NCBI GenBank assembly: GCA_028693885.1
Contig: JAQUUM010000004.1
Span: 1 to 21,310, forward strand
From: Bacilli bacterium
GTDB lineage: Bacteria; Bacillota_I; Bacilli_A; ML615J-28; CAG-698
Direction of reading: 5' to 3'
Length of the DNA stretch: 21,310 nucleotides
The position numbers and the translations under genes are program-made. The notes beneath the pieces were generated by a model. That model saw only the letters and a program-made list of their open reading frames with translations. It had not been told where the DNA came from and did not search any database. Shown piece by piece: positions 8,093 to 17,077 of this stretch. Numbering within the stretch: the first letter of the stretch is position 1; the number at the start of each line of letters is the position of its first letter.

Positions 8093-8102
8093 ATAGAATA
8101 AG

Positions 8103-8135
8103 AGATTAATACATTTTTTGTATTAATCTTTTTTT
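8103..8135 (+). terminator. Rho-independent terminator closing the dnaX-recR block
   Basis: A perfect 11-bp stem AGATTAATACA/TGTATTAATCT (8103-8113 with 8119-8129) has a five-T loop and is followed by a T-run to 8135. Confidence 0.88.
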
Positions 8136-8147
8136 AATGCTTAATCA

Positions 8148-8208
8148 TTTTATAAAATTTTTATAAAACAATTAAATTAATAAAAAGAAATAACTATTTT
8201 TTATAAAA
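8148..8208 (+). repeat. Three copies of the palindrome TTTTATAAAA
   Basis: Exact copies at 8148-8157, 8159-8168 and 8199-8208 have start spacings of 11 and 40 bases, close to whole helical turns. They lie upstream of the transporter-nuclease promoter. They could be protein-binding sites, bent DNA or an UP-like element. In a genome this AT-rich, chance cannot be excluded. Confidence 0.45.
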
Positions 8209-8218
8209 ATGGTGTGTA

Positions 8219-8251
8219 AACAAAATACTTTATAGTGCTTTGTTGTATAAT
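8219..8251 (+). promoter_or_regulatory. Operon promoter -10 with adjoining 26-bp imperfect palindrome
   Basis: A TATAAT at 8246-8251 lies 26 bases before the start of the ABC operon. No acceptable -35 is present. Instead the -35/spacer region is filled by an imperfect inverted repeat, AACAAAATACT (8219-8229) and AGTGCTTTGTT (8234-8244), with 9 of 11 positions paired around a 4-base centre. This is the layout of a regulator-controlled promoter, either operator or activator site. It does not match a CcpA cre site well. Confidence 0.5.
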
Positions 8252-8277
8252 ATATATGGTTTAAATTCAAGGAGAAA

Positions 8278-9438
8278 ATGATGGAAGAAAACAAAACTTT
8301 AGAAACAACAGCTGAGGTTCGTGAAAAAACAATTCATGAAAGTATTGAAGTGAGAATGGAAAACCTTACAAAAGAATTCTCTGATAAAACTGGTAAAATT
8401 ACTGTTGCTGTTAATGATTTTACAGTATCAATTGAAGCAGGTAAATTGATTGGTTTATTAGGACCATCAGGTTGTGGGAAGTCAACTACTCTTTATTTAG
8501 TTGCAGGCCTTTTAAAACCAACTGCAGGTAGAATTTATTTTGGAGAAGATGATATTACTTCAAGACCTCCTGAAAAAAGAGGAATTGGTTTAGTTTTTCA
8601 AAATTATGCTTTATATCCTCATATGACTGTTAGGCAAAATATTGTTTTCCCTTTGGAAAACATGGGAGTTGCAAAAGATGAAAGAAATGCTTTAGCTCAA
8701 GAAATGGCAGAACTTGTTCACATAGGCGATTTGATGGAAAGAAAACCAAATCAGTTAAGTGGTGGGCAACAACAGCGTGTGGCTATTGCTCGTGCTTTGG
8801 TTAAAAAGCCTAAAGTATTATTATTAGATGAACCTCTTTCTAATCTAGATGCAAGACTTCGTCTTCAAACTAGAGAAGAAATAAAAAGAATTCAAAGAGA
8901 AACAGGAATTACTACTATATTTGTTACACATGATCAAGAAGAAGCTATGAGTATTTCAGATGAAATAGTTGTAATGAATTATGGTCTTTTGCAACAAAAA
9001 GATCATCCTCAAGAAGTATATGATAATCCTGTTAATATGTTTGTTGCTAAGTTTTTAGGTAATCCTCCAATTAATACAATTAAGGGTTTTATTAAAAACA
9101 ATAGTTTATACATTGAAGATGTTAATAGTGCTAGTTTGGAATTAAAAGATAAAACTGGTATTTTAATTGAAGAAATTAAAGAAAGTGATCAAGAAGTATA
9201 TATTGGTATTAGACCAGAGTTTTTTAAAGTAACCAAAGATGGTAAAATAAAAGCTTTTGTTGAAATTGTTGAACACATCGGGCGTGATGTGATGGCAATT
9301 GCTAAAATACAAGATACTGATGTAGAAATTAGAGCACTTGTTCCAAGTGATACAAAAATCAAAGCTAACGAAACAATAAAATTTAGTTATTCTAAGTACT
9401 TTGTATTTAATGCAAGTACAGGAGAAAGGATTAAATAA
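8278..9438 (+). CDS. ugpC: ABC importer ATPase, UgpC/MsmK/MalK type
   Basis: This is the nucleotide-binding subunit of a carbohydrate-type (CUT1) ABC importer, acting on the inner membrane face. The 386 residues contain Walker A GPSGCGKST (from ~62), Q-loop in VFQNYALYPHMTV, signature LSGGQQQR (~160), Walker B LLLDEP (181-186) and the switch histidine H218 in FVTHDQ. A C-terminal regulatory TOBE-like domain (~250-386) is typical of this subfamily. Two tandem ATGs exist, at 8278 and 8281. The AAGGAG at 8269-8274 is better spaced from the second, so the protein may lack the first Met. The stop overlaps the next start by one base (TAATG). Family members power uptake of sugars, glycerol-3-phosphate or nucleosides; the nuclease downstream points to nucleic-acid breakdown products. 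Confidence 0.93.
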   Translation: MMEENKTLETTAEVREKTIHESIEVRMENLTKEFSDKTGKITVAVNDFTVSIEAGKLIGLLGPSGCGKSTTLYLVAGLLKPTAGRIYFGEDDITSRPPEKRGIGLVFQNYALYPHMTVRQNIVFPLENMGVAKDERNALAQEMAELVHIGDLMERKPNQLSGGQQQRVAIARALVKKPKVLLLDEPLSNLDARLRLQTREEIKRIQRETGITTIFVTHDQEEAMSISDEIVVMNYGLLQQKDHPQEVYDNPVNMFVAKFLGNPPINTIKGFIKNNSLYIEDVNSASLELKDKTGILIEEIKESDQEVYIGIRPEFFKVTKDGKIKAFVEIVEHIGRDVMAIAKIQDTDVEIRALVPSDTKIKANETIKFSYSKYFVFNASTGERIK

Positions 9439-10403
9439 TGTTAGAGTACAAAAAGGATGGATTAAAAGCAACCGCTGCCTTAATGCCTACTTTACTACTA
9501 ATGGCAGTATTTACTTTTTGGCCTATTTTTAGAACTTTGATTTCGGCTTTTATGGAAGGTTATAATACTAATATGACTTTCATAGAATTCTTTCAAAGAT
9601 TAGGTTCAACAACTAATTTAAGCCTAAGATGGTTTAGTGATATTTTTGTAGTACAAGATGGATTGTTTTTAAAATCTTTAAGAAATACTTTTGAAATGGC
9701 ACTTATATCAGTTCCGATTTCAATTATAGTTTCTTTGTTTATTGCTGTGGCATTAAATGGAATTAAAAGAGGACAAGGTGTACTTCAAACTATATTCTTT
9801 TTACCTTATGTTACAAACTCAATTGCATTAGGAATGGTTTTTTCTTTTATATTTAGTAGTAACTATGGTCTTATTAATGCGATAATTGAAACTTTTGGTG
9901 GAGATTCTCAAGCGTGGATATTTAGAATAACATCAACCGGAGCACAACCTACTAGAGCTTCAATATTATTCGTATTAATGGTATATACAGTTTGGGAAAG
10001 TTTAGCTTTTAAAATTATTGTATTTTTATCAGGACTTCAAAGTATTGATAAACAATACTATCAAGCAGCTCAAATTGATGGGGCATCTCGCTGGACTGTT
10101 TTTAAAAGAATTACAGTGCCTTTATTATCACCAATGATACTATATATTACAATCACTTCAATGATTGGTGCTTTTAAAGCTTATAATAATATAATTGCTA
10201 TTTTCGGTCATAATAAATTTGGACCTACATCAAGTCCTGATGAATTTATTACAGTAGTTGGATTTATTTATAAATATTTACCTTTGCATAATAATACGAA
10301 TTATTTAAGTTTAGTTTCGGCTGGATCCCTAATTCTTTTTGCAATCATAATGCTCGTTACTTTGCTGCAGTTTTATATCGGCAAAAAACGAGTTCATTAT
10401 TAG
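9438..10403 (+). CDS. ugpA: ABC importer permease, UgpA/MalF type
   Basis: This 321-residue integral membrane subunit has about six hydrophobic segments and the BPD-transport cytoplasmic loop. The EAA-type motif reads QAAQIDGASRWTVFKRITVP, starting near residue 209, and docks with the ATPase. The N-terminus (LKATAALMPTLLLMAVFTFWPI) is typical of the UgpA/MalF group. It starts at 9438 in a TAATG overlap with the ATPase gene and lies 14 bases before the second permease, so the two pore subunits are made together. Substrate cannot be read from the sequence. Confidence 0.92.
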   Translation: MLEYKKDGLKATAALMPTLLLMAVFTFWPIFRTLISAFMEGYNTNMTFIEFFQRLGSTTNLSLRWFSDIFVVQDGLFLKSLRNTFEMALISVPISIIVSLFIAVALNGIKRGQGVLQTIFFLPYVTNSIALGMVFSFIFSSNYGLINAIIETFGGDSQAWIFRITSTGAQPTRASILFVLMVYTVWESLAFKIIVFLSGLQSIDKQYYQAAQIDGASRWTVFKRITVPLLSPMILYITITSMIGAFKAYNNIIAIFGHNKFGPTSSPDEFITVVGFIYKYLPLHNNTNYLSLVSAGSLILFAIIMLVTLLQFYIGKKRVHY

Positions 10404-10417
10404 GGGGGTGAAGCATA

Positions 10418-11317
10418 ATGTATGATAATTTATATTTAGAAGGTAAAGAATTAAAAAAATTTAAGACTAAGAAAATTATTAATCAAATAATTATTTATTT
10501 TTTCTTAGCATTGATTGCTTTATTTGTTTTGGTTCCTTTTTATTGGATGTTAGCAACTTCGGTTAAAAGTGATGCAGAGTTAGCTCTTGGATTAACGTTT
10601 TTTCCTCAAGATTGGGCTTTTGAAAACTTTGGTAGAGTTTTTGTTAGAGCACCGTTTTTTGCAAGGTATTTCTTAAATACAATTATAGTAGGTACTTTAA
10701 CTACAATAGGAACTTTAGTAACTACTATTCTCGCTGCTTTTGCTTTTGCAAGACTTAATTTTAAGGGTAAAAATATTTTATTTACAGTGTTGCTTGCAAC
10801 TATGATGATACCAGGTGAAGTGTTTGTAATTTCTAACTTTGTTACTATTGGAAGTTTTGGAAGAATTCCATTACTTTCTTGGGCGGGAAAAGAAACGTTT
10901 GGAGCACTTGTACTACCGTTTATTACAAGTGTGTTTTACATCTTCTTTTTAAGACAAACATTTAAACAAATTCCAAATGAATTATATTTGGCAGCTAAGG
11001 TTGATGGAACTAGTGATTTTAAGTATTTATGGAAAATAATGATTCCAATAGCTAAGGCTACTATTACAACGATTTTTATCTTAAGTATGATGGGAGCATG
11101 GAATGCTTATATTTGGCCTACACTAGTTGCTAATAGTGAAGAAATGCGTTTAGTAACAAACGGTTTAATGCAATCATTTACTGATGAAGGTGGTCAAACA
11201 CCAGACAACTTAAGAATGGCAGCAACTGCTTTGGTAACTGTGCCATTACTAATTGTATTTATATTCTTAAGAAAGTATATTATGCGAGGAGTATCTCGTA
11301 GTGGTATAAAGGGTTAA
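10418..11317 (+). CDS. ugpE: ABC importer permease, UgpE/MalG type
   Basis: This is the second pore-forming subunit, 299 residues with about six hydrophobic segments. Its EAA-type loop is LAAKVDGTSDFKYLWKIMIP, near residue 190. The N-terminal region, with VPFYWMLATSVKSDAEL after the first membrane segment, and the conserved Arg-Leu-rich helices are typical of UgpE/MalG. A G-rich ribosome site (AGGGGGGTG) precedes the ATG. The C-terminus is RGVSRSGIKG, typical of the subfamily. The gene ends in TAATGA and is followed 15 bases later by the binding lipoprotein. Confidence 0.92.
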   Translation: MYDNLYLEGKELKKFKTKKIINQIIIYFFLALIALFVLVPFYWMLATSVKSDAELALGLTFFPQDWAFENFGRVFVRAPFFARYFLNTIIVGTLTTIGTLVTTILAAFAFARLNFKGKNILFTVLLATMMIPGEVFVISNFVTIGSFGRIPLLSWAGKETFGALVLPFITSVFYIFFLRQTFKQIPNELYLAAKVDGTSDFKYLWKIMIPIAKATITTIFILSMMGAWNAYIWPTLVANSEEMRLVTNGLMQSFTDEGGQTPDNLRMAATALVTVPLLIVFIFLRKYIMRGVSRSGIKG

Positions 11318-11332
11318 TGAAAGGAGCCTGAT

Positions 11333-12841
11333 ATGAGAAAATTATTTAGTTTAGTATTTATTTTAGGACTTGCTTTAGTTTTGTCTGCGTGTGGGACAAG
11401 AAGAAGCAGTTTAGTTAATTTAGTAAGTATGGAAGATTTTGAAGCTCAGACAGATATTCAAATTACTTTTAGAGTTTCGTTTGGTCAAACTATAACGCCA
11501 CATGTACAAAATTTGATTGATGATTTTAATGAAAAATATGATAATGTTACTTGTACAATGGAAGTAGTTGGTGGATATGATAATTTGCTTAAACAAACAA
11601 AATTAGATGTTCAAGGAAACACTGCTCCAACAATGGTAATTGGGTATCCTGATCATATAGCAGCTTATTTATTATCTGATGGTGTTGTACCTTTAGATGA
11701 TTTTATGGCTAGTGAAGAAGTAGGTTTTACAGAAGATGATATGAACGACTTTATTCCTTCATATTTAGAAGAAAATAATAAATATGATGCTAGAGGAACT
11801 TACTTTAGTTTACCTTTTAATAAATCAACTGAAGTATTAGTTTATAATAAAGCTTTCTTTGATTATTTTGATTTAGATGTACCTACTACTTGGCAAGAAG
11901 TAGATACAGTAGCTAAAGAAATCGTTGGAATTGTAAAGTCAGGAGATGCTGATAATACTTGGTCACCTGGTCTTACAATGTCTACAATGAATGATTTTAT
12001 TCCTATAAATTATGATTCAAATTCTAACTATTTCATTACAACAGCTCATCAATGGAATGGCCCTTATACATCTAGTGCTTTAAAAGCTGATGATTCAGTT
12101 GATCTTGAAAAAGGTAAAATGGATTTTGCTGATAGCACACTTAATGCGAATACCGTTGCTGGTTTAACATTTATGAAGACTATGGCTGATTATACTTATG
12201 GTGGGAATCCTGCACCTTTGGTAACTACTCCTGAGTATTGGGAAGAGTTATATGGAAGTAATCCGTTTAAACAAGGTAAATGTGTAATGACGATTGGTTC
12301 TACTGCGGGAGTTTCAAATAATCAAGGTGGAGTGGCTACTAATTTAGGTTATGCACCAATTCCTTATGATGAAGTAAATGCAATTAAAACAGTTATACAA
12401 CAAGGTACTAATGTTGCGATTTTATCGCAAGCAGATGATTACCAAAGAATGGCTGCTTGGTTATTTATTAAACATTGTTTAAGTTTAGAAGGAACTATTA
12501 GTTTTGCTGTTGGTACTGGATATTTTCCTGTAAGAAATTCTGCTTATAGTTATGATGCTGAAATTGCTGAAGGTGTTAGTGAAATTAACGATCAAGCTAA
12601 AGTGTATTATGATTTCTTAAATACTCCGACTATTGAACAAATTGCTAAATCAAAAGTGGCTCAAGTAATTAAAACATATAAAGATTTAGGTTATACATAT
12701 TATGTAGATCCTGCATGGAGTGGGTCTGCGGATGTTAGGCTTGAGGTAGGTATTGCAATGGTTCAAATTTTGATTGATAAAATTGCGATAGAAACAGCTC
12801 TAACAGATGCTAAAAACAGAGTGCCTACACTTGATTTTTAG
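11333..12841 (+). CDS. Extracellular solute-binding lipoprotein (family 1) of the importer
   Basis: This is the substrate-capturing subunit, anchored to the outer face of the membrane. It has a lipoprotein signal with lipobox LSAC, lipidated cysteine C20, then a 480-residue mature part. Family 1 solute-binding features include QNLIDDFNEKYDNVTCTMEVVGGYD at the first lobe, APTMVIGYPDH, PFNKSTEVLVYNKAFFD, and FKQGKCVMTIGSTAGV, followed by a helical second lobe. It is longer than maltose-binding protein and has an extra asparagine/tyrosine-rich stretch near residues 215-250. AAAGGAG precedes the ATG. Co-transcription with an SNase-like lipoprotein suggests nucleotides, nucleosides or short oligonucleotides as ligand. 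This is inference: the fold by itself would suit a sugar or glycerophosphodiester. Confidence 0.88.
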   Translation: MRKLFSLVFILGLALVLSACGTRRSSLVNLVSMEDFEAQTDIQITFRVSFGQTITPHVQNLIDDFNEKYDNVTCTMEVVGGYDNLLKQTKLDVQGNTAPTMVIGYPDHIAAYLLSDGVVPLDDFMASEEVGFTEDDMNDFIPSYLEENNKYDARGTYFSLPFNKSTEVLVYNKAFFDYFDLDVPTTWQEVDTVAKEIVGIVKSGDADNTWSPGLTMSTMNDFIPINYDSNSNYFITTAHQWNGPYTSSALKADDSVDLEKGKMDFADSTLNANTVAGLTFMKTMADYTYGGNPAPLVTTPEYWEELYGSNPFKQGKCVMTIGSTAGVSNNQGGVATNLGYAPIPYDEVNAIKTVIQQGTNVAILSQADDYQRMAAWLFIKHCLSLEGTISFAVGTGYFPVRNSAYSYDAEIAEGVSEINDQAKVYYDFLNTPTIEQIAKSKVAQVIKTYKDLGYTYYVDPAWSGSADVRLEVGIAMVQILIDKIAIETALTDAKNRVPTLDF

Positions 12842-12850
12842 GTATTAAAG

Positions 12851-14107
12851 ATGAGAAAAATAAAGAAGTATTTAATTGTTTTATTACTAGCGCTAGTGTT
12901 AGTACTGAGCGCTTGTAATAAAACTGATGATCCAGAAGATACTCCATTAGAATTAGATACTAGATATACAGATGCTTTGGTATTAGAAACTAGTTTTGAA
13001 GGTAAAGAGTTTATTGCTAACGGAATTGGTGAGGTTACTTTAGGTCTTTGTGTTGATGGTGATACTGTAACTGTAAGAAGTGGATCTACTAATATAACTA
13101 TTAGATTTTTAGGAATTAATACTCCTGAATCAACTGGTAAAGTTGAACCTTGGGGAAAACCTGCTAGTACTTTCACAAAAGAAAAACTAACTAATGCTAA
13201 TTCGATTGTTTTAGAAGCAGAAGGTGAAAGAACTGATAATAACGGAAGGTATTTAGCTTGGGTTTGGTATCAAGCTGAAGCAGGAGATCAATATAGATTG
13301 CTTAATCTAGAAATTATTGAAGAAGCTTATTCGTTTTTTACAATGGGCTCAACAAAATACCATGAAACTTTTATTTCAGCCCATTATAAAAATACAAGTA
13401 TTAAGAAAAGATTATATGGTGAGACTGATCCAAGTTTTTCTACTTCAAAAGTAGCACTTGATTCAACAATCGCTTATGTATTATCAGGACAAGAAGAATA
13501 TTTAACTGGAACAGTTTTTGATTTAACTGTTCAAGTTATTAGAACTGTTGGTGATGATTTCTTTGTAAGAGATGTCTTACCGACTGATATTGATGGTGAA
13601 GTAGTTTATGGTGATATTTTCGTTTTTGGATTTTATGGAGTTAGTTATTATACTTATTTAAATATTGGAGATATTGTTACTTTTAAATGTAAGTTTGATA
13701 TCAACGGTAATTATGGAGATCAAATTACTGATATTCAAGAATTAAGAATTACTGGTAGTGAAGAAGTTGTACTTGATGTAATTGATTCAAGTGAAATTAC
13801 AGATTTAAGTGTTTATAAAGGTGAAGTTATTACTATTGATAATTTGATTTATAAAGGATTTTATCAATCTCAAAATGATCAAGAATCAAATCCTGAACAA
13901 TACACTTTAAATTTTGAATCAAGTACTGGTAAAGAATTTGATGTTAGAATTGGGAATAGACTTATTTCTAGATATAATGTCAATGATTTAGTAGTAGATG
14001 AAGTATATATGGTAACTGGTGGAGTTAGCTATTATGAATTCGCTAGTGATTCGTATCAATTAATGCTTGGTGATAAAAACAAATCAAATGATATTGTTTT
14101 AAAATAA
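12851..14107 (+). CDS. Staphylococcal-nuclease-like lipoprotein with OB-like C-terminal domains
   Basis: This is a surface-anchored, calcium-dependent-type nuclease. Lipobox LSAC has cysteine C22. The SNase domain spans about residues 55-190. By alignment with staphylococcal nuclease, D71 (VDGDT) matches Asp21, R85 (IRFLGINTPE) matches Arg35, E93 matches Glu43 and R133 (NNGRYLAW) matches Arg87. The Ca2+-ligand Asp40 is replaced by N90, a substitution that may be tolerated. Residues ~195-418 hold two beta-rich OB-like units (LTGTVFDLTVQVIRTVGDDFFVRD and YKGEVITIDNLIY), as in nuclease-associated OB domains that hold nucleic acid. Nine bases separate it from the binding-protein stop, and AGGT provides only a weak ribosome site. 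Mycoplasma lipoprotein nucleases (MG186/MPN133) are likewise next to ugpC-ugpA-ugpE genes. The function call is strong; activity is untested. Confidence 0.88.
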   Translation: MRKIKKYLIVLLLALVLVLSACNKTDDPEDTPLELDTRYTDALVLETSFEGKEFIANGIGEVTLGLCVDGDTVTVRSGSTNITIRFLGINTPESTGKVEPWGKPASTFTKEKLTNANSIVLEAEGERTDNNGRYLAWVWYQAEAGDQYRLLNLEIIEEAYSFFTMGSTKYHETFISAHYKNTSIKKRLYGETDPSFSTSKVALDSTIAYVLSGQEEYLTGTVFDLTVQVIRTVGDDFFVRDVLPTDIDGEVVYGDIFVFGFYGVSYYTYLNIGDIVTFKCKFDINGNYGDQITDIQELRITGSEEVVLDVIDSSEITDLSVYKGEVITIDNLIYKGFYQSQNDQESNPEQYTLNFESSTGKEFDVRIGNRLISRYNVNDLVVDEVYMVTGGVSYYEFASDSYQLMLGDKNKSNDIVLK

Positions 14108-14127
14108 TAAAAGGAGGAAAGAAAAAA

Positions 14128-17019
14128 ATGAGTCTTAAAAAAGTTTTAATTAGTTTTGTAGTATTGTTTTTAGGAGTTGTTTTGGTAGGTTGCGGCAAGG
14201 AAGAAAATCTTGCTGAAACTTATATTCAAAACATAAGTCTTCTAAATCCTGCAGCAATTGTTGAGGATATACAATTGCAAAAGAAAATTAGTGGTCAAGG
14301 AAGCGTTACTTGGGTATCAAGTAATGAAGCAGTAGTTACTATTGAAGAGTATGAGGATACAACTTTAGCTGCAAGTTTCTTCAAGGGTAAAGTTACTCGT
14401 CCTGCGGTTGGTGAAGAAGATGTTATTTTAACATTAACAGCTACTTTTTCATTAGATGGAAAATCTGCAACTAGGGATATTAACATTAAAGTATTAGCAA
14501 TGCCAGCAGCAACTACAATCGCTGATATCTTAGAAATGAGTTCAGGGGCTGAAGTTTTAGTAGAAGGTGTTGTTGCTGCGGTTGGACCTAGTGGATTTAT
14601 GTTAGATGATACAACTGAAATCATCTATGTTTATCAAGGATCAGCTCCAGTTGTTGTAGTTGGTGATACAGCTGAGGTTAGTGGTACATTATCTATATAT
14701 CACAGTGCAAAACAAATATCTTATCCAACAGTGACTAAGATTAATACAGAAGCAGGTACTTATACTTATCCTACTCCTGTAAAAGTTACAGCTGATTCAC
14801 TTGCTAGTCTTTATAACGGTGATAGTAATGATTTTAATAATTATTATGAAATAACTGGAATTATTGATTTGATGGGCGATTATGATGATGTCTACATTAG
14901 AGATTTTGAAAATCCTGATATTGCAATTTATGTTCAATATAGTTATATTAATACAACTAATACTGCAATGTTTAAAGCTAAAGAAGGAGCTACAGTAAGC
15001 TTCAAAGCTTATTCAGTAGCACTTGATAATGATTACTATGATGATACTGTAGCAGTTATGTATTTAGATCAAACTTTCGTTGAATATACTGATACAGCAG
15101 CTTATGTTACGGTTACTGGAAGAAACATGATTGACATTGTTAATCCTCGTCAATATACAGCAAATCTTTTCCCTTCAACTGCAACAGCTACAGTTGTTTG
15201 GTCAACAAGTAATGAAGCAATTGCTACAGTTGATCAAACAGGACTTGTAACTGGTGTTTCAGAAGGCGATGTTGATATCATTGCTACAATTGGAACAATT
15301 ACTAATAGTAAAACTATTACGGTTGTAACAGAATTAGCTGATCCAACAGCAGTTAGTATTACAGGCGATGCTGAAGTTACTGAGTTTACAACAGCAGACT
15401 ATACTTCAGCTGTAGAACCAGTTAATGCAGATCCTGCAGTTACATGGAGTGTAAGTGATGAAACAATAGCAACAATTGATCAAACTGGTAAGCTTACTGC
15501 TATTAAAGTTGGTACTGTAACAATTAGTGCTACTGCAACTGGTACAACAGTTGTTGGTACTAAAGATGTTGATGTAGTTGCAATGGCAACAGTTGATATT
15601 GCTACTTTACTTCCTACTTTAACTGCAACACCACAAACTACATCTATTAAAGGTGAAGTGGTGGGTATTGCTGCTAAGGGTTGGTATCTAGCAGATAATA
15701 CTGGTTATGTTTATGTTCATTTAAATAAAGCACCTACTAATGTAGAATTAGGTGACACTGTAAGACTTGCAGTTAAGAAAGCACAAGTTTATTTCAATAC
15801 TACTAACTATGTTTATCAAATGGATGCAAGAACTGCAACTGATATGAATATCTATGAAATAACAGAAACATTTACTCCGCTTGCAACAGAAGCAAAGACA
15901 GTAGCAAGTTTTGAGTATTTGCCTGAAACAACTGTAACTGTAGATGTTATGAATGCTATGACAACTATGACTACATATGGCTTTAAATGGGTTGAAGTTA
16001 CTGGTACTGTAATTAAATTTGGTAGTAATAATAATACATATTTAGAAGTTGGTACTGATAAAGTTATGATTGACTATAACTCAACATCTGATGCTTTAGC
16101 AAGACTTGATTATTTAGTAGGCGATGAAATAACTTTAAAAGGTTTGATTTATGGTTATAATAAATCAAATGGTTGGAGTATTACTTTCTTTAATAGAGAA
16201 GGTGATTTAAAACAAGGTGAAACTGTTTTAGAAGTTAAACCTGCTATTATGTATGTTGATGAAATTGAAGATGAAATGGCTGGATATTATCCAGTTGAAG
16301 TTGAAGAAGATATGACTTTTGATTTTGCATCAACTTTATACCCTACTACAGCTTTTACTTATTCATCAAGTAATGCAGCCGTATTAAGTGATGCAGGCGT
16401 TGTTACTAGAGGTGCAAGTAATGAAAATGTTACTATAACAATTACAGTTTATTTAGATGGAAATACATCAGGTACTGCTAGTGGAACAATCGAAGTTGTT
16501 GTTACAGTATTAGCAGTGGGTGCTGTTCCTCTAGAGACTATGTATTCAACTGGATTTGAAACTCCTGGTTTTACAGCATCAACAACATATAATAATAGTG
16601 TTCCTAAACTTCAAGGACCAACTGGATATGAATGGGAAGTTGTTATGGGCACAGCATCAACAACGGCTTTTATTACAGGTGCTCAAAGTATGCAAATGAG
16701 ATCTTATCTAAGTAAGCCTGGTGTTCTTGGATACGCTGCCATGAACTTTAACGTAGATAATGCACATAAAATAACATTCAGTGCTAAGGTTTATACAGAT
16801 GATGATATAATGAAGGTATATTATTCAACTGATAATGGTGTAACTTGGATTGGTGAGGAAACATTTACTCCTACTAAGACAGCAACAACTTATACATATA
16901 ACTTACCTGAAGGCGGAGTTAATAATGTTAGATTTAAATTTGAACATCCAACACAGGGCGTAGATGGTACAAGGTTGACTATTGATGATGTAGTAGTTTT
17001 AGGAATTCCGGCTGCCTAA
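14128..17019 (+). CDS. Large surface lipoprotein of alternating OB-like and Ig-like domains
   Basis: This 963-residue lipoprotein (lipobox LVGC, C22) shows no enzyme motif I can recognise. Its modules in order are: atypical Ig-like (~30-125), OB-like (~128-205, GEVLVEGVVAAV-type start, seen as EVLVEGVVAAVGPSGFMLDD), a second OB-like (~215-315), two BIG_2-type Ig domains (~328-402 and ~410-485, sharing SNEAIATVDQTG / SDETIATIDQTG), OB-like (~490-570, TSIKGEVVGIAAKGWYLAD), OB-like (~620-690), atypical Ig (~730-800) and a C-terminal beta-sandwich (~810-960) like those that end secreted nucleases. Threonine and valine are abundant and cysteine is absent from the mature part except the anchor. A strong AGGAGG precedes the ATG. 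It is the last gene of the transporter-nuclease operon. Inferred role: display scaffold or nucleic-acid/polymer binder. Adhesin is the alternative. Confidence 0.8.
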   Translation: MSLKKVLISFVVLFLGVVLVGCGKEENLAETYIQNISLLNPAAIVEDIQLQKKISGQGSVTWVSSNEAVVTIEEYEDTTLAASFFKGKVTRPAVGEEDVILTLTATFSLDGKSATRDINIKVLAMPAATTIADILEMSSGAEVLVEGVVAAVGPSGFMLDDTTEIIYVYQGSAPVVVVGDTAEVSGTLSIYHSAKQISYPTVTKINTEAGTYTYPTPVKVTADSLASLYNGDSNDFNNYYEITGIIDLMGDYDDVYIRDFENPDIAIYVQYSYINTTNTAMFKAKEGATVSFKAYSVALDNDYYDDTVAVMYLDQTFVEYTDTAAYVTVTGRNMIDIVNPRQYTANLFPSTATATVVWSTSNEAIATVDQTGLVTGVSEGDVDIIATIGTITNSKTITVVTELADPTAVSITGDAEVTEFTTADYTSAVEPVNADPAVTWSVSDETIATIDQTGKLTAIKVGTVTISATATGTTVVGTKDVDVVAMATVDIATLLPTLTATPQTTSIKGEVVGIAAKGWYLADNTGYVYVHLNKAPTNVELGDTVRLAVKKAQVYFNTTNYVYQMDARTATDMNIYEITETFTPLATEAKTVASFEYLPETTVTVDVMNAMTTMTTYGFKWVEVTGTVIKFGSNNNTYLEVGTDKVMIDYNSTSDALARLDYLVGDEITLKGLIYGYNKSNGWSITFFNREGDLKQGETVLEVKPAIMYVDEIEDEMAGYYPVEVEEDMTFDFASTLYPTTAFTYSSSNAAVLSDAGVVTRGASNENVTITITVYLDGNTSGTASGTIEVVVTVLAVGAVPLETMYSTGFETPGFTASTTYNNSVPKLQGPTGYEWEVVMGTASTTAFITGAQSMQMRSYLSKPGVLGYAAMNFNVDNAHKITFSAKVYTDDDIMKVYYSTDNGVTWIGEETFTPTKTATTYTYNLPEGGVNNVRFKFEHPTQGVDGTRLTIDDVVVLGIPAA

Positions 17020-17035
17020 AAAATACTTAATATTT

Positions 17036-17077
17036 AACACTTCTTTTAAAGAAATTTAAAAGAAGTGTTTTTATTTG
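17036..17077 (+). terminator. Strong terminator closing the transporter-nuclease operon
   Basis: A perfect 15-bp stem, AACACTTCTTTTAAA at 17036-17050 and TTTAAAAGAAGTGTT at 17055-17069, is capped by a GAAA tetraloop and followed by a T-rich tail. It is the strongest hairpin in the window and separates the operon from the reductase-rsmA unit. Confidence 0.92.

Follow-up and report, generated by a model that had tools for sequence, protein, structure and literature searches.

In a 21,310-base stretch of DNA from a Bacilli bacterium (GenBank assembly GCA_028693885.1, contig JAQUUM010000004.1, positions 1 to 21,310; hereafter the window), six genes at 8278-17019 encode an ATP-binding cassette (ABC) importer, a nuclease and a large surface lipoprotein. 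They form a real and conserved operon, which is very probably a system for digesting nucleic acids and importing the products. As for the imported species, we lean towards short oligonucleotides, judging from gene partners and distant homology: NrnA-like proteins are partners in the gene rows of relatives, this partner is kept where the nuclease is absent, and the profile of the binding protein is nearest to the solved structures 7c0f-7c1b. The gene order in the window is ATPase (A), permeases (B, C), solute-binding lipoprotein (S), SNase lipoprotein (N) and Ig/OB lipoprotein (L), with the following features (aa, amino acids).

8100..8132, + strand: AT-rich terminator-like hairpin, 14-pair stem and T run (z -7.7; 0/200 shuffles equally stable)
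8278..9438, + strand: gene A, MalK/UgpC-type ABC ATPase, 386 aa (PF00005, 7.5e-38; UgpC best NCBIfam model)
9438..10403, + strand: gene B, UgpA/MalF-like permease, 321 aa (PF00528, 1.3e-14; UgpA, 76 bits)
10418..11317, + strand: gene C, UgpE/MalG-like permease, 299 aa (PF00528, 2.2e-20; UgpE, 115 bits)
11333..12841, + strand: gene S, solute-binding lipoprotein, 502 aa, a proposed binder of short (oligo)nucleotides (PF13416, SBP_bac_8, 1e-29; C20)
12851..14107, + strand: gene N, SNase-family lipoprotein nuclease, 418 aa, with a C-terminal OB-like accessory domain (PF00565, 1.6e-10)
14128..17019, + strand: gene L, large surface lipoprotein, 963 aa, a proposed polymer binder or scaffold (Big_2, 1.1e-21; aBig_2, 3.8e-13)
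17036..17069, + strand: operon terminator, 15-pair stem followed by a T run (fold z -5.4)

The six open reading frames (ORFs) lie on the plus strand in one direction with intergenic spacings of -1, 14, 15, 9 and 20 bases, just as an earlier note on this DNA had described them (gaps of 20 bases or less). Pfam recovered the kinds of component named there, namely an ATPase, two permeases, a binding lipoprotein and an SNase-like lipoprotein, and the 15-bp terminator that it placed after the last gene is the one listed above. The N-termini of S, N and L are of the lipoprotein type, with cysteines C20, C22 and C22, and the lipobox cysteine is kept among aligned relatives in 33/33 S, 32/32 N and at least 90% of 25 L proteins.

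The operon may work as follows. L, via four OB-like segments akin to the accessory domain of N, would hold extracellular DNA or RNA, and N would cut it at the cell surface, its active site being evident in the sequence. S would capture short fragments, di- or oligonucleotides being the likeliest, as its nearest solved relative and the gene partners suggest, and A-B-C, an importer whose type is evident from sequence, would bring these presumed substrates into the cell. Inside, an NrnA-like enzyme, encoded in the rows of part of the relatives and not in the window, would hydrolyse 2-5-mers to mononucleotides, from which SurE-like phosphatases, found in few relatives, may remove the phosphate.

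Recurrence of the gene block in relatives

The earlier note had raised the recurrence of the gene order as a point to check, and the order does recur. N was present in 49 of 60 related genomes searched with it, and C, S and N stood in that order in 38 of the 60 N-found stretches, many of them adjoining dnaX-ybaB-recR. The remaining stretches were either cut by contig ends (three: L042, L049, L082) or had no importer beside the nuclease (19).

A second search was seeded by S alone to avoid selecting by nuclease, and S was found at E 1e-40 or better in 168 of the 296 genomes of the class. Among 60 S-found stretches, a hand-picked spread of families rather than a random draw (58 of them outside families f1 and f2), permease C was beside S in 56; an SNase, detected with our own profile, was present in 48 of those 56 and on the same strand in 46. 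The eight ABC-linked stretches without SNase comprise four apparently cut by contig ends (L097, L127, L146, L150), two in which SNase is absent and DHH and SurE genes are present instead (L116, L117), and two genuine exceptions in which an Ig protein follows S (L125, L149). Named records found via S are labelled Acholeplasmatales, Izemoplasmatales, Haloplasmataceae, Bacilli or Tenericutes, and lower in the list Clostridia. SNase was present in 69/79 of the named loci, and in 42/44 of those with enough flank (at least 4.5 kb before S and 3 kb after it); the two exceptions are L178, which reads A-B-C-S-L, and L194 ('Ca. Izemoplasma acidinucleici'), which has S without B and C genes.

As a control, other binding-protein genes were examined in 21 genomes. 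SNase lay within 12 kb of 18/23 S genes versus 0/123 other SBP_bac_1 genes, and an NrnA-sized DHHA1 gene within 12 kb of 14/23 versus 0/123. Counting three weaker S-profile matches (G064, G031 and one of G293) as S gives 18/26 and 14/26 versus 0/about 120. SNase places in this control cover the SNase part with an E-value no higher than 5.1e-9 and do not include a further Pfam match to SNase in G012, which was not located; the DHHA1 genes were open frames of 310-355 aa, longer ones being dropped. Because SNase is near most S genes and near none of the other binding-protein genes, the linkage, which recurs in many genera, is specific to the S-type binding protein. Chance linkage of nuclease and importer was rejected by synteny and the control counts. 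The proposal of the earlier note that importer, nuclease and OB lipoprotein make up a nucleic-acid scavenging operon is thus supported by a recurring and S-specific linkage. A nuclease unlinked from the transporter in relatives, which that note had named as evidence against it, was mostly not seen, the exceptions being a phytoplasma genus, genus g32 and the loci L125, L149 and L178. The nuclease-less loci of the phytoplasma genus and g32 retain a gene for an NrnA-like oligonucleotide hydrolase beside S; in L125, L149 and L178 both the nuclease and the NrnA-like gene are absent.

Nuclease N and lipoprotein L

Residues D69, R85, T91, E93 and R133 of N are invariant across 32 aligned nucleases, and we take them to be the catalytic Arg, Glu and Arg and the Ca-binding Asp and Thr of SNase. 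Since the catalytic-site residues are invariant in all 32 sequences, N is expected to be active. The products of SNases are mononucleotides and short oligonucleotides with a 3'-phosphate.

In L, Pfam found Ig-like domains, and a C-terminal part resembles choice_anch_J in an NCBIfam comparison (26.4 bits, under the cut-off of 30); an OB domain was not detected by Pfam in the L protein of the window itself. In profile-profile comparison, the C-terminal domain of N matched L at 120-215 (probability 97.4, E 1e-11) and 480-600 (94.7), and more weakly at 210-330 and 590-710 (about 72), and five Ig or C-terminal segments of L reached a probability of at most 0.3. The OB-fold nucleic-acid-binding family PF01336 was called in 8 of the 25 proteins of the L alignment A2, a total that still includes five rows afterwards not accepted as L (one each from L083, L071 and L043, two from L055) and dropped for the profile-profile comparison. 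It was also called in P0244 (E 2.4e-9) and, under cut-off, in the C-terminal part of the relative nuclease P0201. Since segments like the C-terminal domain of N occur in L and PF01336 is called in relatives, L and N probably have a nucleic-acid-binding accessory domain in common. The OB/Ig nature that the earlier note ascribed to L is accordingly borne out, the Ig part by Pfam and the OB part by the four profile-profile matches. L was recognised by phmmer as the gene right after N in 13 of the 38 blocks, and many others have a long ORF there.

Around this end of the block, families f8 and f13 have a further, diverged SNase gene behind L (L102-L105, L120, L121, L124), and NERD-HRDC nuclease-related genes lie between the large downstream gene and an aldo/keto reductase gene in two loci (L033, 6132-7052; L034, 12192-13151).

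Transporter, binding protein and partner genes

The importer has CUT1 features, with two BPD_transp_1 permeases and a family-1/8 binding protein all over Pfam cut-offs; the OB_MalK domain of A scored 25.9 bits at a cut-off of 27. Ugp models were the best NCBIfam matches for all four transporter parts, yet every score was under the curated cut-off (UgpC 351/432 bits, UgpA 76/335, UgpE 115/297, UgpB 66/411), and identity as a Ugp glycerol-phosphate importer was rejected on these scores. E. coli UgpB/UgpAEC is an importer of the same type, and UgpB is the second-nearest binding protein to S, but S and the transporter genes of the window fall well under the equivalog cut-offs, and the ugp operon carries ugpQ and no nuclease. 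Competence-type DNA uptake was also rejected, such a domain being absent among the six operon proteins by Pfam.

When the S profile was compared with a library of solved sequences, the PDB 7c0x/7c0f group came first (157 bits), followed by UgpB (141 bits). We take 7c0f-7c1b to be the TTHA0379-type dinucleotide-binding protein of Thermus thermophilus. FNKS, a Tyr at 307 and QGTN are common to S and the Thermus protein, whereas UgpB has FNSS, Glu and GGAS. Five positions vary among the deposited variants of the 7c0f group and are taken for mutated pocket residues; the aligned residues of S are Y82, D107, Y307, S323 and N329, the first four invariant or nearly so within the S family. S thus appears to resemble the Thermus protein slightly more than UgpB, although the Thermus protein is distant and, with moderate support, branches outside the S family in the tree. 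Elsewhere, paired adjacent S-type genes occur in families f7 and f18 (L092-L101, L071, L128), and some S-type proteins are fused to repeat or Ig-like domains (P0054, P0056); a second specificity is possible for such proteins.

In part of the relatives, one or two DHH-DHHA1 proteins, for which NrnA is the top NCBIfam model, are encoded next in the gene row, and some rows also hold a SurE or Na/Pi-PhoU gene. A same-strand DHH gene was present in 25 of the 56 ABC-linked S-found stretches. In genus g32, all four ABC-linked loci fetched (L116, L117, L264, L265) read A-B-C-S-DHH-SurE without SNase, and in genus g134 the row asnS-A-B-C-S-DHH without SNase was found in 5/5 genomes. In the genome of the window, DHHA1 matches were located on other contigs. 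NrnA degrades 2-5-mers (PMC5593865, PMC11229311; here and below, statements on cited papers refer to the parts of their text available to us). Three further S loci of g32, belonging to a second S copy (L118, L266, L267), have no A, B or C genes.

Nature of the cargo

Several observations weigh against oligonucleotide import or the scheme around it. The identity of 7c0f-7c1b given above is presumptive. The resemblance of S to known proteins is distant: among 55 conserved S positions, the Thermus protein matched 27, UgpB 25 and MalE 18. A second SNase Ca-ligand, Asp in many relatives, is Asn (N90) in the window. Six NrnA-like proteins tested with NF053633 scored 213-275 bits, all under the cut-off of 350. 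A same-strand DHH gene was found in only 8/38 of the N-found blocks, in 0/24 of those from the family of the window, and in only 10/79 named loci (6/44 with enough flank). The 21 control genomes were chosen for holding S and are related by ancestry, so that Fisher values for them are not to be read as probabilities, and the counts in general are not phylogenetically independent. An earlier paper presents TTHA0379 in its title as a potential glycerophosphocholine binder. Other roles of NrnA include pAp and c-di-AMP breakdown (PMC11229311).

Two reports also point away from oligonucleotides and towards nucleosides: Wasmund et al. took the ABC transporters next to nucleases in Izemoplasmatales for probable carriers of nucleosides or nucleobases (PMC8289736), and a Mycoplasma bovis operon with a UgpE-superfamily permease is tied to inosine and thymidine uptake (PMC12838404). 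The same scavenging operon could then carry a nucleoside or base, other surface phosphatases stripping the phosphate, with NrnA and SurE merely general RNA-turnover neighbours, and the patchy NrnA link would fit this. We consider it a serious though rather unlikely alternative. No phosphatase was found among the six window genes by Pfam, the NrnA-like and SurE partners beside S in nuclease-less rows would have little work on nucleosides, and P48, the known nucleoside-binding lipoprotein of mycoplasmas, belongs to a different family, PnrA.

It is improbable that the cargo is a phosphorylated mononucleotide of the 3'-NMP or pNp type and the NrnA-like enzyme a pAp-type phosphatase instead of an oligonucleotidase. 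In its favour, SNase releases 3'-mononucleotides and SurE is a nucleotidase; against it, the best solved relative of S is presumably a dinucleotide binder. Some NrnA family members do have pAp phosphatase activity, but the Deinococcus NrnA that was tested lacked it and preferred di- and trinucleotides (PMC11229311). Lastly, an importer of glycerophosphodiesters, glycerol-phosphate or sugars of the Ugp/Mal kind with the nuclease as a chance neighbour is very improbable: UgpC/A/E/B are the best models, UgpB is the second PDB group and phytoplasma transporters are annotated Mal/Ugp, but all four models stay under their cut-offs, the SNase and NrnA-sized gene linkage is specific to S (0/123 other binding-protein loci), and among those operon and neighbour proteins that were scanned, neither a glycosidase nor a GlpQ/UgpQ-type gene turned up.

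Flanking sequence and host genome

The source genome of the window is 1.34 Mb with completeness rated at 86.5%, and the G+C content of the window is 26-35% per kilobase. Upstream of the operon lie dnaX, ybaB, recR (named from recognisable sequence) and an 82-aa ORF, a stretch closed by the hairpin at 8100-8132. This strong terminator-like hairpin just upstream suggests that the operon may be transcribed separately from the dnaX-ybaB-recR stretch. The regulated-looking promoter described in the earlier note was not confirmed: a consensus promoter scan of 8093-8277 gave zero plus-strand sites, and the fold of the inverted repeat at 8205-8260 barely beats its shuffles (z -1.8; 9/200 equally stable). 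An RNA-family scan gave the T-box of asnS as its sole match in the window and none at the operon. This T-box leader (RF00230, 105.8 bits) precedes asnS at 2737-2956 on the minus strand, and in several other families asnS directly adjoins the importer operon. In several families, RDD-family membrane proteins are encoded one or two genes upstream of the ATPase gene (L053, L071, L078, L092, L098).

Relation to known systems

Nucleic-acid scavenging by a nuclease-linked importer is not new, being already in print for mycoplasmas and Izemoplasmatales. In Mycoplasma agalactiae, an SNase lipoprotein, a binding lipoprotein, an ATPase and two permeases are co-transcribed, and import of nucleic-acid precursors was proposed in 2013 (PMC3585158). 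These genes, MAG_5030 (P80), MAG_5040 (SNase) and MAG_5050/5060/5070, are the same five kinds of component and co-directional as in the window, but their order is binding protein, SNase, ATPase, permease, permease, versus ATPase, permease, permease, binding protein, SNase and L in the window (PMC3585158). An Ig/OB lipoprotein is not described in the available text of that paper (PMC3585158), and P80 is compared with S here by gene organisation. The binding protein was considered in the earlier note to be an addition to the mycoplasma arrangement, which does not hold, because MAG_5030 is the published partner of the nuclease MAG_5040 (PMC3585158). In our data, a P80-type operon was found in 0/10 SNase stretches from small f16 genomes, one of which has an ABC set about 7 kb off. 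According to a review, operons are formed by some of the nuclease and ABC genes of mycoplasmas (PMC12115388).

For Izemoplasmatales, DNA-degradation loci and DNA as a nutrient were described in 2021 and for strain zrk13 (PMC8289736, PMC8397711). These loci, among the closest known systems, combine nucleases, ABC and phosphate transporters and a large protein with nucleic-acid-binding domains; that protein has nuclease and lamin-tail domains, and the transporter was read as one for nucleosides or nucleobases (PMC8289736, PMC8397711). As for such multi-nuclease features, one SNase was found in the incomplete genome of the window, and a second SNase, NrnA-like genes and Na/Pi-PhoU occur in some relatives. 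A locus of Hujiaoplasma nucleasis zrk29 holds an extracellular ribonuclease, NrnA, a nucleoid-associated protein, RecR and ABC transporters; DNA or RNA induces many of the genes (PMC10470597, 2023). Its ingredients match the rows ybaB-recR-A-B-C-S-N-(large protein)-NrnA of our relatives, but oligonucleotide import is not proposed in the available parts of that report (PMC10470597). In the literature searched, most subscription papers lying outside it, neither the import of oligonucleotides by this importer nor the phytoplasma reading below is stated. What goes beyond prior work would be the proposals that short phosphorylated oligonucleotides are the cargo and that the phytoplasma importer is of the same type.

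Possible link to the phytoplasma transporter

We take genus g134 to be 'Ca. Phytoplasma'. S of four of the five g134 genomes, the ones included in the tree, nests within the nuclease-linked S clade (97% SH-aLRT) in a quick tree with long branches, particularly in the outgroup, and with six control rows (five of 11 without a usable open frame were skipped). Each of the five g134 genomes has two SBP_bac_8 matches, one being S and the other a protein of about 400 aa that is presumably PotD, and a Pfam SNase match is absent in all five. Phytoplasma papers describe one 'maltose' MalKFGE importer, whose substrate was still regarded as unclear in a 2011 review (PMC3322544) and for which matching catabolic enzymes were not found (PMC2459194), and a nucleotide transport system was not identified in 'Ca. 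Phytoplasma mali' as far as the available text goes (PMC2459194). By exclusion, we infer that the published MalEFGK importer is the A-B-C-S set.

On this reading, the phytoplasma 'MalEFGK/UgpBEAC' system (PMC2459194, PMC3322544) resembles the operon of the window in that the S of g134 lies inside the nuclease-linked S clade, and the row asnS-A-B-C-S-DHH resembles several f10 loci. It differs in that the g134 row has neither nuclease nor Ig/OB lipoprotein, and the published system is annotated as a sugar importer (PMC2459194, PMC3322544). Thus the "MalEFGK sugar transporter" of phytoplasmas may be the nuclease-linked importer type without its nuclease. Taken jointly, and only tentatively since the whole is somewhat less probable than its opposite, a CUT1 oligonucleotide importer would be coupled to a nuclease and a nucleic-acid-binding lipoprotein outside and to an NrnA-type oligonucleotidase inside, and the sole 'sugar' ABC transporter of phytoplasmas would be the same machine without the nuclease, supplying nucleic-acid precursors and phosphate instead of maltose or sucrose.

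If the importer does carry oligonucleotides rather than nucleosides, the picture of nucleic-acid scavenging by wall-less bacteria and free-living DNA degraders would be redrawn, phosphate entering the cell with the fragment. Moreover, synteny supplies a testable alternative substrate for the 'maltose' ABC transporter of phytoplasmas, which is an old question (PMC2459194, PMC3322544).

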